A stretch of DNA of 64,000 bases. Origin: Methanosarcina mazei S-6. GTDB lineage: Archaea > Halobacteriota > Methanosarcinia > Methanosarcinales > Methanosarcinaceae. Position numbers and translations under genes: made by a program. Location: positions 2,666,001 to 2,730,000 of the forward strand of contig NZ_CP009512.1 of the NCBI RefSeq assembly GCF_000970205.1, read 5' to 3'. The notes under the pieces are model-generated. The model had not been told where the DNA came from and made no database searches. It saw only the letters and a program-made list of their open reading frames with translations. Positions 33,462-39,437 of this stretch are shown one piece after another; the stretch's first letter is position 1; each line of letters starts with the position of its first letter.

Positions 33462-33954
33462 AAAATACCCTCAACTATACTCTCACGTAACTTTTTTGTG
33501 TTCACATTAAGACACTATCAAGTCCACTGGAAAAAAATCACTTTCATCAGAATTTAAGCATGTAAACTATTTCTTCCTCGCAGACCTGATAAAACCTTAA
33601 AACCTATTCCCCTGTAAAGGCAAATGTTTTTACAATTTAACCTTACTATGAATACAATTTAAACCTTATATTAGCTCTGGTTAACATTTATTGAGATATC
33701 TTTGTCCAGTACTAATCCCGTTATTTTTCAGGGTAGCTTCATCTTGTAATTTCAATGCTTTATTTACAGGCTTTACTATGAAACCCAATTATTACAGAAG
33801 ACATAACTCTAAAAAAACAAACATGGAACTCTTCGAATTACAGGCACAAAAATATGAAAATTCTTTCAAGTACTTTCATGCTAAATAGTAAAAAAGGCAT
33901 TTAAGGCTTTTAAATTGGGGAAGAAGGAATGCAGTTATTACTGGAGGTAATTGT
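33462..33954. other. AT-rich leader region between the catalase start and the structured element
   Basis: No gene is supported. It contains the likely catalase promoter (TATA-like stretches near 33640-33660) and a short open frame at 33778-33888 that I could not support. Confidence 0.4.
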
Positions 33955-34155
33955 CGGGCAGCCTGTTCAGGTTGGAGTAGCCGCACACAATTTGATTTTA
34001 GCATAAATTTCCCACCCCGCAGTCAACGACCTCTGCCCGTTGGTCCGAAGGCATCGGAAGGGTGCATTTTGACATCGTAGCGGCACGAACTGGCTGTCGT
34101 TCTTATTCTCGTGCCCGGGTTTTTGCAGGAGCAGTCCATTGCTCCTGCCGATGCC
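33955..34155. ncRNA. Candidate structured RNA: GC-rich, four interlocking stems
   Basis: Stem 1 pairs CGGGCAG (33955-33961) with CTGCCCG (34033-34039). Stem 2 pairs GGCATCGG (34050-34057) with CCGATGCC (34148-34155). Stem 2 encloses stem 3, GGCACGA (34082-34088) with TCGTGCC (34109-34115), and stem 4, GCAGGAGCA (34125-34133) with TGCTCCTGC (34140-34148). All are perfect pairs. The base composition is clearly richer in G and C than the flanks. It lies 47 bases past the end of the helicase gene and about 500 bases before catalase. I could not match it to RNase P, SRP or tRNA. Direction of transcription is unknown, and an inactive mobile-element end is an alternative. Confidence 0.5.
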
Positions 34156-34201: not shown

Positions 34202-35410
34202 TTAATAGTTTTTGTGCCTGGGTTTATGACGTTTTCTGGAGGGGTTGTCCATCCTATTTACCGGCTTTGGCAACCTTATTTCCGGTCTTTCAATTACAAT
34301 CTTCTTCAGAGCAGGTAGTGCCTGTTCCTTAATATCCACATCATTGTCTTTCAGCACACTCATGAAATTAGCGTGGTCATTTTTGGAAAGGATATTTATC
34401 GCTTTTCCTTCTGTTCCTGCTCGTGCGGTTCTTCCAATCCTGTGAATATACTGTTTACTCTCCCTGGGAATATCATAATTGTAAACATGGGAAACACCCT
34501 GTATATCAAGTCCTCTTCCGGCTACATCTGTGCATACAAGGACACCTATGTTCCCGGAATGAAATTTTTCCATTATGCGAGTTCGTTCGTTCTGTGTCAG
34601 TCCGCCATGAATTGCCACGGCATTGATACTTGATTTTCTCAGGTTTTTTGCGACTTTGTCAGTGTTTCTTTTTGTGTTGCAGAAAACCATCCCGAGGTTT
34701 GACTTCTCATTTTGTAGAAGGTACACGAGCAGAGATAATTTCATGTCATCCTGTACTTTATAAACGACCTGATTCAATTTTTGCGGGTCGATATAAGACT
34801 CTGTTGATACTCGAACCGGATTTTTCATGTACTTGCGGGAAAGCTGGACAATATCTTTTGTAATGGTCGCAGAGAACAAAAGGGTCTGCCTGTTTTGAGG
34901 ACATTCCTTGATAATTTTTTCTACATCCACTTTGAATCCCATATCAAACATATGGTCTGCCTCATCAAGGACAAGGGTTTTCACATTATTGAGTTTGATG
35001 GTATTTCTGCTGATATGATCGAGTAGCCTACCGGGTGTTCCCACAACAACCTCGGCATTTTTTAATTCTTTAATTTGTGTATTGATCCCTACACCGCCAT
35101 AGATAGATGCGATATTTAACGGGTCGTATTTTGAGAATTTCCTTAAAGAATTTGCTACCTGCTCCGCCAGTTCTCTTGTAGGGGTCAGGATCAAAGCCTG
35201 AATTCCTTTTCCTTTTTCGGAATTTTGTAATATGCCGGAAGCAAATGAGAGTGTTTTTCCGGAACCTGTTGCGGCTCCGCCTATAACATCTTCCCCAGCA
35301 AGTATTAGGGGAATTGATTTTTCCTGTATTGCTGTAGGGCTTTCAAAGCCATGTTCATCTATTGATTTCAAAACAGCATTACTGAGACCTAGTTTTTTAA
35401 AATTATTCAT
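34202..35410 (-). CDS. DEAD-box RNA helicase
   Basis: The start is placed at MNNFKKLGLS (35410), because upstream ATGs would add a head unlike the family; this gives 402 residues. Motifs are Q (GFESPTAIQEKSIP), I (AATGSGKT), Ia (PTRELAEQ), II (DEAD at about residue 147), III (SAT), IV-VI (HGGLTQNERTRIM, CTDVAGRGLDI, HRIGRTARAG). The C-terminus ends in a basic tail RKRHKPRHKNY. It unwinds RNA in an ATP-dependent way; such genes in methanogens often respond to cold. It is followed by the candidate structured RNA. Confidence 0.93.
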   Translation of the reverse strand: MNNFKKLGLSNAVLKSIDEHGFESPTAIQEKSIPLILAGEDVIGGAATGSGKTLSFASGILQNSEKGKGIQALILTPTRELAEQVANSLRKFSKYDPLNIASIYGGVGINTQIKELKNAEVVVGTPGRLLDHISRNTIKLNNVKTLVLDEADHMFDMGFKVDVEKIIKECPQNRQTLLFSATITKDIVQLSRKYMKNPVRVSTESYIDPQKLNQVVYKVQDDMKLSLLVYLLQNEKSNLGMVFCNTKRNTDKVAKNLRKSSINAVAIHGGLTQNERTRIMEKFHSGNIGVLVCTDVAGRGLDIQGVSHVYNYDIPRESKQYIHRIGRTARAGTEGKAINILSKNDHANFMSVLKDNDVDIKEQALPALKKIVIERPEIRLPKPVNRMDNPSRKRHKPRHKNY

Positions 35411-35603
35411 AGTTAGACTTTCCATGATTTTTCTGAAAAAGCTACTTAATTGCTTTTTCATATTCATATATTTAAGATATATTAAAAACAATTAAGAGCT
35501 ATAAACACAACTTCAGAAAAGTTAAGATTAATTTACTGCTTAAAAGTTCGTAATCGCTTATAACGGTGAACTCTCCCTTTATACTTTTGCCTATTTTGAT
35601 GAT

Positions 35604-35918
35604 GTGATTACCCAGCATTCATTGTTCTTCCAAAGGTTCGACCCCAAATGGGTAGACCCGGACGGCATGACTTACGAAGAATATCAGGCTGCAATGGATA
35701 AGATGTGGCTTAGAATGGCAGAGCCGGACGGAGAAGGCATAGACCTGCACCCAGATGACTCAAGGCGGCGGTTTATAGCGACCAGTGGGGGTTTAATCTT
35801 CAGTCAAGCGCCCCCCTTAACCGAAGAAGACAGGCTCGAAGCGGACCGGCTTTGGGACAGCATAGCCCTGCCAGGGACCAGTCCGGGTATCGTGACCCCT
35901 GAGAAGAAGACGCACTGA
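35604..35918 (+). CDS. Hypothetical acidic protein
   Basis: The protein has 104 residues from GTG 35604. It is acidic, rich in Asp, Glu, Pro and Trp (KWVDPDGMTYEEYQAAMDKMWLRMAEPDG, LTEEDRLEADRLWDS), with no membrane segment. No family is recognised. The base composition is higher in G and C than its surroundings, suggesting separate origin. A start further in, at MTYEEY, is possible; no strong ribosome-binding site distinguishes them. Confidence 0.55.
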   Translation: MITQHSLFFQRFDPKWVDPDGMTYEEYQAAMDKMWLRMAEPDGEGIDLHPDDSRRRFIATSGGLIFSQAPPLTEEDRLEADRLWDSIALPGTSPGIVTPEKKTH

Positions 35919-37846: not shown

Positions 37847-37899
37847 GTAGTCACTATACCCCGGACTTAAGTCCAGGCATGTTTGCAAACCGTGACTAC
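37847..37899. repeat. Nested palindromes at the IS200/IS605 right flank
   Basis: GTAGTCAC (37847-37854) and GTGACTAC (37892-37899) form outer arms. Between them lie two further perfect palindromes, GGACTTAAGTCC (37863-37874) and GTTTGCAAAC (37881-37890). The region abuts the right-end hairpin at 37901-37920 and lies just before the hydrolase gene. It may be part of the element end or a target-site palindrome. Confidence 0.75.
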
Positions 37900-37904
37900 T
37901 CCCA

Positions 37905-39026
37905 TCACTGAAGTGACGGGCATCTACCAGAATTCTGGAGAGATTGTAATCCCAATCTCATAATGTTAATAGCGGCATTGTGATCTCTATCAAGAGTAAG
38001 ACCACAGTAAGGACAACTGTGTATTCTCTCTGATAGTTCTTTTTTAACTATTTCACCGCATCCAGAGCACATTTGTGATGTATTACATGGATTGACAAGC
38101 TCTACACGTTTACCAGCCCATTCTGCCTTGTAAGACGTGATAGTTACAAGCTTATTCCATGCAACATCAGCTATGTGTTTTGCTAGTTTGTGGTTTTTAA
38201 TCATACCTTTAATGTTCAAATCTTCAAAAGTAATCAGGTCATAATTCCTGACCAGATTAAGACTTACTTTCTGTACAAAATCCTCTCTCTTGTTTGAGAT
38301 TCTTTCGTGAACACGTTGAACAGCTTTCAAGGCTTTTGCTCTTTCAGGTGTTCCTTTTTCAAGTTTGGAGAGTTTTCTTTGGACTTTTGCCAGAAACTTT
38401 TCTTCTGTAACAAAGAATCTAGGATTAGGTACATAATTACCATCAGAAAGCGTTAAGAAGCTCTTGATACCTACGTCTACACCTACTGATAATCCTGTTT
38501 TTTGTAATTCCAAAGGAGTATCAGTTTCAACCAGAAAAGAAACAAACCATTTTCCTGTAGGCATCTTACGAACATTGAGTCTTTTAATTTCACCTTCTAC
38601 TGGTCTATGTAATTTGATTTTAATATCACCTATTTTTGATAGTGTTAACCTATCAGAATCCAGAGAAAAGCCTGATTGAGTATAGGTAAAACTATCATAC
38701 CTTCCGTATCCTCTGAATCTAGGATAGCCTGCCTTCTCTCCTGTTTTAACTCTACGGAAAAAGGCTTGAAAGGCAAGATCTACTCTCTTGATTACTTCCT
38801 GTAATACCTGTGAATGAACTGTTTTCAATTCAGGTTTTTCTTTTTTCCATTCAGGGATCATTTTCTTAGAATCATAGTACCCTATATTCTTTTGCTCTGA
38901 CTCCCATGCATCTTTCCTGAGTGCAAGTGTCTCGTTATATGTCCACCTACAAAGCTCAAGAGTATTATTCATAGTTGTTTTTTGAGCCTTTGTAGGATAG
39001 ACTCTATACCGAAGCACTTTTAACAT
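37905..39026 (-). CDS. tnpB: TnpB RNA-guided nuclease of the IS605 element
   Basis: The protein has 373 residues, full length. The RuvC-like triad is seen: D in VGVDVGIKSFLTL (about residue 190), E in LITFEDLNIKGM and D in LDRDHNAAINIMRLG. The zinc ribbon is CSGCGEIVKKELSERIHSCPYCG. TnpB family members cut DNA under the direction of an RNA from the right end and help retain the element. The stop codon lies within the right-end hairpin. It starts right after the tnpA stop. Both genes look intact, so the element may be active. Confidence 0.93.
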   Translation of the reverse strand: MLKVLRYRVYPTKAQKTTMNNTLELCRWTYNETLALRKDAWESEQKNIGYYDSKKMIPEWKKEKPELKTVHSQVLQEVIKRVDLAFQAFFRRVKTGEKAGYPRFRGYGRYDSFTYTQSGFSLDSDRLTLSKIGDIKIKLHRPVEGEIKRLNVRKMPTGKWFVSFLVETDTPLELQKTGLSVGVDVGIKSFLTLSDGNYVPNPRFFVTEEKFLAKVQRKLSKLEKGTPERAKALKAVQRVHERISNKREDFVQKVSLNLVRNYDLITFEDLNIKGMIKNHKLAKHIADVAWNKLVTITSYKAEWAGKRVELVNPCNTSQMCSGCGEIVKKELSERIHSCPYCGLTLDRDHNAAINIMRLGLQSLQNSGRCPSLQ

Positions 39027-39437
39027 TCATTTCACCTTTTGAGTTTCAATATACATTTTTACAGTTTCTTTTGTTGTATCTCCACATGTTCCAACATAAT
39101 AAGACGGATTCCAGAGATGACCATTCCATAATCTGCTCTTTATTTCAGGATGCATTTCAAAGAGTTTCTTTGCAGTAATTCCTTTGAATATTTTCACAAT
39201 ATCAGCAGGTGCAAACTTGGGATGCATGATAATGAAAAGATGCACATGATCCGGCATTACTTCTTGAGTGACAAGAGTTACACCTTTTTCTTTTGCTATC
39301 TGTTCGTGAAGCTCTTTCAGATCTTCAGCTATTTTTCCAATAAGGACTTTTCTTCTATATTTTGTAGACCATACGAAATGGTAATTTGTGTTATATACAC
39401 AACCTCTTGCACTTATCCAATGTTCTTTTCCTGCCAT
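39027..39437 (-). CDS. tnpA: TnpA Y1 (HUH) transposase of the IS605 element
   Basis: The protein has 136 residues. The HUH motif is PDHVHLFIIMHPK and the single catalytic tyrosine lies in NPSYYVGTCGDTTKETV. The N-terminal YNTNYHFVWSTKYRRKVL is also typical. It carries out single-strand excision and insertion at the hairpin ends. The gene is immediately upstream of tnpB. Length and motifs are those of an intact protein. Confidence 0.95.
   Translation of the reverse strand: MAGKEHWISARGCVYNTNYHFVWSTKYRRKVLIGKIAEDLKELHEQIAKEKGVTLVTQEVMPDHVHLFIIMHPKFAPADIVKIFKGITAKKLFEMHPEIKSRLWNGHLWNPSYYVGTCGDTTKETVKMYIETQKVK

Follow-up and report, generated by a model that had tools for sequence, protein, structure and literature searches.

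Among the described systems with which the locus analysed here may be compared, the attC sites of gene cassettes have outer arms with the consensus RYYYAAC and GTTRRRY. A different case is that of the palindrome-associated transposable elements (PATEs) of Haloquadratum, which are present as homogeneous copies (PMC3119063) and, by analogy, appear to constitute the closest known system to the element that we call module B. This element lies within positions 33955-34155 of a 64,000-nucleotide stretch of the Methanosarcina mazei S-6 genome, hereafter the window, between a gene for a DEAD-box RNA helicase (35491-34202, delimited as the longest open reading frame, the true start of which may be a later ATG) and a catalase gene (33461-31764), as originally predicted. 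Both genes are on the minus strand, so that the stretch is downstream of the helicase and upstream of the catalase, with minus as its natural sense strand. Comparison with relatives places seams at about 34068 and about 34000, and the stretch is a mosaic of three unrelated modules lying side by side, not a single RNA: module A, the 3' trailer of the helicase (34204-34069, minus strand); module B, a single copy of a two-hairpin element with a dispersed distribution (34067-34020, minus strand); and module C, a dispersed intergenic repeat of Methanosarcina (about 33999-33890, strand unassigned). In the interpretation that we favour with moderate confidence, the stretch would represent the 3' flank of a helicase unit, probably acquired by import, with repeat DNA beyond it, B being the terminal palindrome of a non-autonomous unit similar to IS200/IS605.

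The family of module B was tracked from two blastn matches in another family, through a pattern search that gave no match in controls, to covariance models. At E ≤ 1e-5, the model for B finds copies in 80 of the 238 genomes of the class, all within Methanosarcinales; Methanosarcina sequences and eight other loci formed its seed and match by construction, which does not apply to the remaining copies. Up to nine strong copies per genome occur in Methanosarcinales outside Methanosarcina, whereas Methanosarcina genomes have a single copy, found only behind the helicase and present at 10 of the 14 loci with this gene (it is absent from G002, G020, G175 and G176). The second stem of B varies while keeping its pairs: 80 distinct rows contain 78 double-change cells, compared with 26.4 after shuffling, a count of 78 is not reached in any of 500 shuffles, and slid controls give at most 34, in an alignment that was fitted to the structure and hence leans towards it. 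The window copy and those of other Methanosarcina have two mismatches in the second stem, which indicates that the Methanosarcina copy is worn. Neither in the window nor in 20 loci of relatives carrying B or B-like sequence does B have an Rfam match. Module B is a dispersed family of structured elements with strong covariation, absent from Rfam.

The 3' boundary of B, marked in the window by GTTGAC at 34027-34022, is fixed and sharp. In three pairs of duplicated units formed by a gene and B, namely L227/L229 (93% over about 1 kb), L222/L228 and L207/L230, the homology ends no more than 3 bases from the end of B. Moreover, a shared sequence starts exactly at the 3' end of B in L195, L221, L232, L242, L243, L245 and L258; it is probably a group II intron, and in L243 a match to Rfam RF00029 lies about 750 nt beyond its start. 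Other copies of B are followed by GGGATGGG...ATGCTC, which is also seen after IS200 right ends, and the sequence CGGGGTGGGAAATTTATGCT that follows B in the window (34019-34000, minus strand) likewise recurs in relatives after both B copies and IS200 right ends. Resident IS200/IS605 elements have right ends of the form GCC-hairpin-GGGG-TATAGTGAC/T or GGGG-TAATTGAC/TT (the slash marking the end) and B has one of the form GATGCC-hairpin-GGTCGTTGAC/T, so that B and resident TnpB/TnpA elements appear to have in common the layout GCC-hairpin-GG-spacer-TGAC/T, a likeness judged by eye across some 30 nt. The window has one such element at 37850-39401, in which two minus-strand genes encode a Y1 transposase (about 39039-39401) and a TnpB that looks intact (37905-39026); its right-end hairpin (37850-37880, minus strand) was used for comparison only, and the element runs into the start of a hydrolase open reading frame. 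Genes for Y1 transposases are present in all 10 genomes tested and lie within 1.5 kb upstream of B in 6 of 63 loci, always on the strand of B; the coordinates of the Y1 gene at L221 are partly unreliable, and its position upstream of B was found by two other comparisons too.

Module B is dispersed and multi-copy (one copy, at the helicase, in Methanosarcina) and has no transposase gene. Most likely, it is the worn terminal palindrome of a non-autonomous, PATE-like unit related to IS200/IS605. Its hairpin, folded as single-stranded DNA, would serve as the recognition site of a resident Y1 transposase, the end of the unit being expected immediately past TTGAC; in relatives, units of this type have one gene or a few preceding the palindrome. 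We infer both the mobility of the unit and its recognition by a transposase. The original prediction had listed the remnant of a mobile element end among its options, and this turns out to be the best reading for B and also fits C. Several observations are in tension with an IS200/IS605-like origin. Open reading frames of at least 120 aa within 200 nt upstream of B are on its strand in 24 cases and on the opposite one in 6 (p = 0.0014), a bias towards the 3' side of same-strand genes that is unexpected for a freely inserting element, while the open reading frames downstream of B have no strand bias. The likeness of the right ends extends over just those 30 nt or so, with weak partial matches of the model at TnpB loci; B is missing at four of the 14 helicase loci of Methanosarcina; and no left end is recognisable at 35639 for the block containing the helicase.

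The latter position is where homology upstream of the helicase breaks in several relatives. About 200 nt on the 5' side of the gene are conserved in the relatives compared (35405-35639) and form a candidate long leader or promoter. The helicase itself has the Pfam domains PF00270 and PF00271, its nearest NCBIfam models being CshA and DbpA, both below their cut-offs, and is present in 14 of 31 Methanosarcina genomes. Module A occurs in exactly the same 14 genomes, in perfect co-occurrence, and additionally in six genomes from two further genera of the same family; of the 186 genomes of the order, 20 have a match to its model, each a single one and invariably located at the helicase. Since A always accompanies the helicase, it is most likely a component of the transcription unit of that gene rather than an RNA gene in its own right, and the helicase-related RNA that had been envisaged is borne out for A by its location in all 20 of these genomes. 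Outside the order's assigned genomes, a contig filed under a Desulfobulbaceae genome (L081), probably mis-binned, contains the helicase of Methanosarcina together with modules A and B, the identity being 94%, and neither A nor B matched the plasmid records.

The core of module A (34204-34119, minus strand) comprises the stop codon and the first 83 nt or so of the trailer, with the hairpin GCAGGAGCA-AUGGAC-UGCUCCUGC (34148-34125; fold z = -4.0) and an A-run at its end; the distal part (34118-34069, minus strand) has a hairpin GGCACGA...UCGUGCC (34115-34082), being common to Methanosarcina and genus g15 and mostly lost in g24. We infer that A forms a stem-loop in the 3' UTR of the helicase mRNA, which would run past the stop codon into the trailer, and the strong hairpin may mark or protect the 3' end of this mRNA. 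That A works as a functional cis element of the mRNA, with a role in its autoregulation or stability, perhaps at low temperature, is compatible with our favoured reading of the stretch and can be entertained as a tentative proposal. Besides the perfect co-occurrence with the helicase and the z-score of the hairpin, it has in its favour the identity of the core to its most distant relatives (g24), which is 81-83% versus 69-75% at four-fold sites of the helicase, and single-base indels, by which coding is ruled out; a coding extension or small open reading frame was excluded on this ground. Conversely, the conservation is modestly above that of four-fold sites and in g15 equal to it, one related helicase (L089) lacks A, and covariation does not exceed that of shuffles: the hairpin has 96% of cells paired over 21 sequences, among which no double compensatory change is found, and for an alternative helix that would close A internally (34070-34077 with 34147-34154), pairing is at 88% and covariation is not significant. 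The original prediction had proposed a covariance search in Methanosarcina; the comparison of relatives gave strong covariation for B and none of significance for A. The idea of A as a strongly constrained RNA is weakened by the comparison with four-fold sites and by this covariation at the level of shuffles. The hairpin is followed by AAAAACCC, with no U-run directly after it on the minus strand, and consequently is not an intrinsic terminator on that strand, another point against the cis element. Overall, the sequence makes a modest case for an RNA function of A.

The strand bias and sharp boundary of B raise an evolutionary question that deserves consideration: could B be an attC-like recombination site of a gene-cassette system, in which an integrase adds or removes units formed by a gene and its site? 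Such a system, in which each gene bears at its 3' end a site that is conserved in its flanks and variable in its stem, would account for the 24:6 bias, the genes upstream of B being miscellaneous, and for the duplications and the common sequence (the probable group II intron) that stop or begin, respectively, at the 3' edge of B. In nine loci, same-strand copies of B are 0.5-1.3 kb apart, and in L282 (7600-10004) unrelated small genes are each followed by a same-strand B, in the order gene-B-gene-B, next to a gene on the opposite strand. However, the runs are only two to three copies long, and the arm pair RYYYAAC/GTTRRRY is absent in the copies examined: when 63 copies were compared by eye with the consensus, their 3' end was GTTGACT, with no matching 5' arm. 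The resemblance to right ends of IS200/IS605 elements explains the boundary more simply. An integron-type cassette system is hence unlikely, and it stays under consideration for its fit with the runs and with the bias towards gene ends, despite the missing core arms of attC. We regard as more doubtful still that B is the site of an unrecognised, non-integron cassette system of archaea which shuffles single genes in ANME and Methanoperedens-like organisms and was the source of the Methanosarcina helicase.

The original prediction considered the whole stretch as one candidate RNA of unknown class, an interpretation that now appears very improbable. With a minimum length of 7 bp, a stem search over the 201-base piece recovers exactly four perfect Watson-Crick stems, all those that had been reported: one of 9 bp (34125-34133/34140-34148), one of 8 bp enclosing two hairpins (34050-34057/34148-34155) and two of 7 bp (34082-34088/34109-34115 and 33955-33961/34033-34039). 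The GC content is indeed high, 55% compared with 42% in the window. These stems and the fold of the 136-nt A region (z = -2.44) would suit a single structured non-coding RNA, but two of the four cross the seams, the 8-bp stem joining B to A and the 7-bp stem that starts at 33955 joining C to B. Genomes without B or C cannot form them, and so neither stem can be general. Their number had been deemed very unlikely by chance, which was too strong: dinucleotide shuffling yields four or more such stems in 0.75% of cases (P = 0.0075), but when 201-base pieces are drawn at random from the window itself, about 10% have that many (P about 0.10). Structure prediction gives a similarly divided answer, with an ordinary fold for the entire stretch (z = -0.35 on the plus and -1.77 on the minus strand) and a strong one for the hairpin at 34148-34125 taken locally. 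The stretch shows how unrelated repeats that abut can give rise to a striking cluster of stems. RNase P, SRP RNA and tRNA had rightly been discounted, and no Rfam family reaches its gathering score in 33955-34155, nor is any tRNA or tmRNA detected in the window; nothing among the titles of the literature on Methanosarcina small and conserved RNAs corresponds to the stretch. Elsewhere in the window, Rfam recognises PYLIS_5 (pyrrolysine insertion sequence, transposase 1) at 558-657 with 129 bits. Least probable of all is that B constitutes the omegaRNA guide scaffold of a TnpB nuclease, for even if the hairpin at the end of resident TnpB elements is similar, this candidate is largely refuted by the finding of no TnpB in six B-rich genomes (G025, G032, G036, G044, G048 and G180), which argues against a guide scaffold, and by the covariance model of B giving only weak partial matches and no full B at the 13 TnpB loci, with B not lying at tnpB 3' ends.

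Returning to B as the palindrome of an IS200/IS605-like unit, the repeat DNA beyond it consists of module C (33890-33999), which is present in three places of the S-6 genome and has 22-23 matches in each of G004 and G019, no coding gene of its own being apparent. Given that B is common among the other Methanosarcinales and restricted to a single locus in Methanosarcina, joint import provides the simplest history, in which helicase, trailer and B would have arrived together in Methanosarcina. The Methanosarcinales that carry B include genomes read, putatively, as ANME-type or Methanoperedens-like. Should the mobility of B be confirmed, it would provide a means for individual genes to travel among anaerobic methane oxidisers and methanogens, the helicase being an example. 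What the comparison brings to light is the family itself, a structured element that is dispersed across Methanosarcinales, prefers the ends of genes and has a sharply defined 3' boundary, and this scattered family of hairpins is the one part of the stretch worth following.

In comparison with known systems, the predicted hairpin of module A resembles mRNA 3' UTR stem-loops in lying about 55 nt past the helicase stop codon, and it differs from intrinsic terminators in having no U-run. As in archaeal integrons with their attC sites (PMC9668308), B is a structured site on the 3' side of mixed genes, arranged in short same-strand runs and with a variable stem between conserved flanks, but without the attC core arm pair. 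With the right ends of IS200/IS605 elements B appears to share GCC-hairpin-GG followed by TGAC/T 7-9 nt on, while having an extra upstream hairpin (GCAUC/GAUGC) and no transposase gene of its own, many B-rich genomes also being devoid of TnpB. The comparison with PATEs concerns the 3' side, from which the B unit is known here: copies of B are far more diverged than those of PATEs and lie mostly 3' of genes, in units of a gene plus B. Yet both are transposase-free and multi-copy, without inverted terminal repeats; both have a near-terminal palindrome, in B putatively related to IS605-type ends as it is in PATEs, with similar last bases; and both have other mobile elements inserted at them (PMC3119063).
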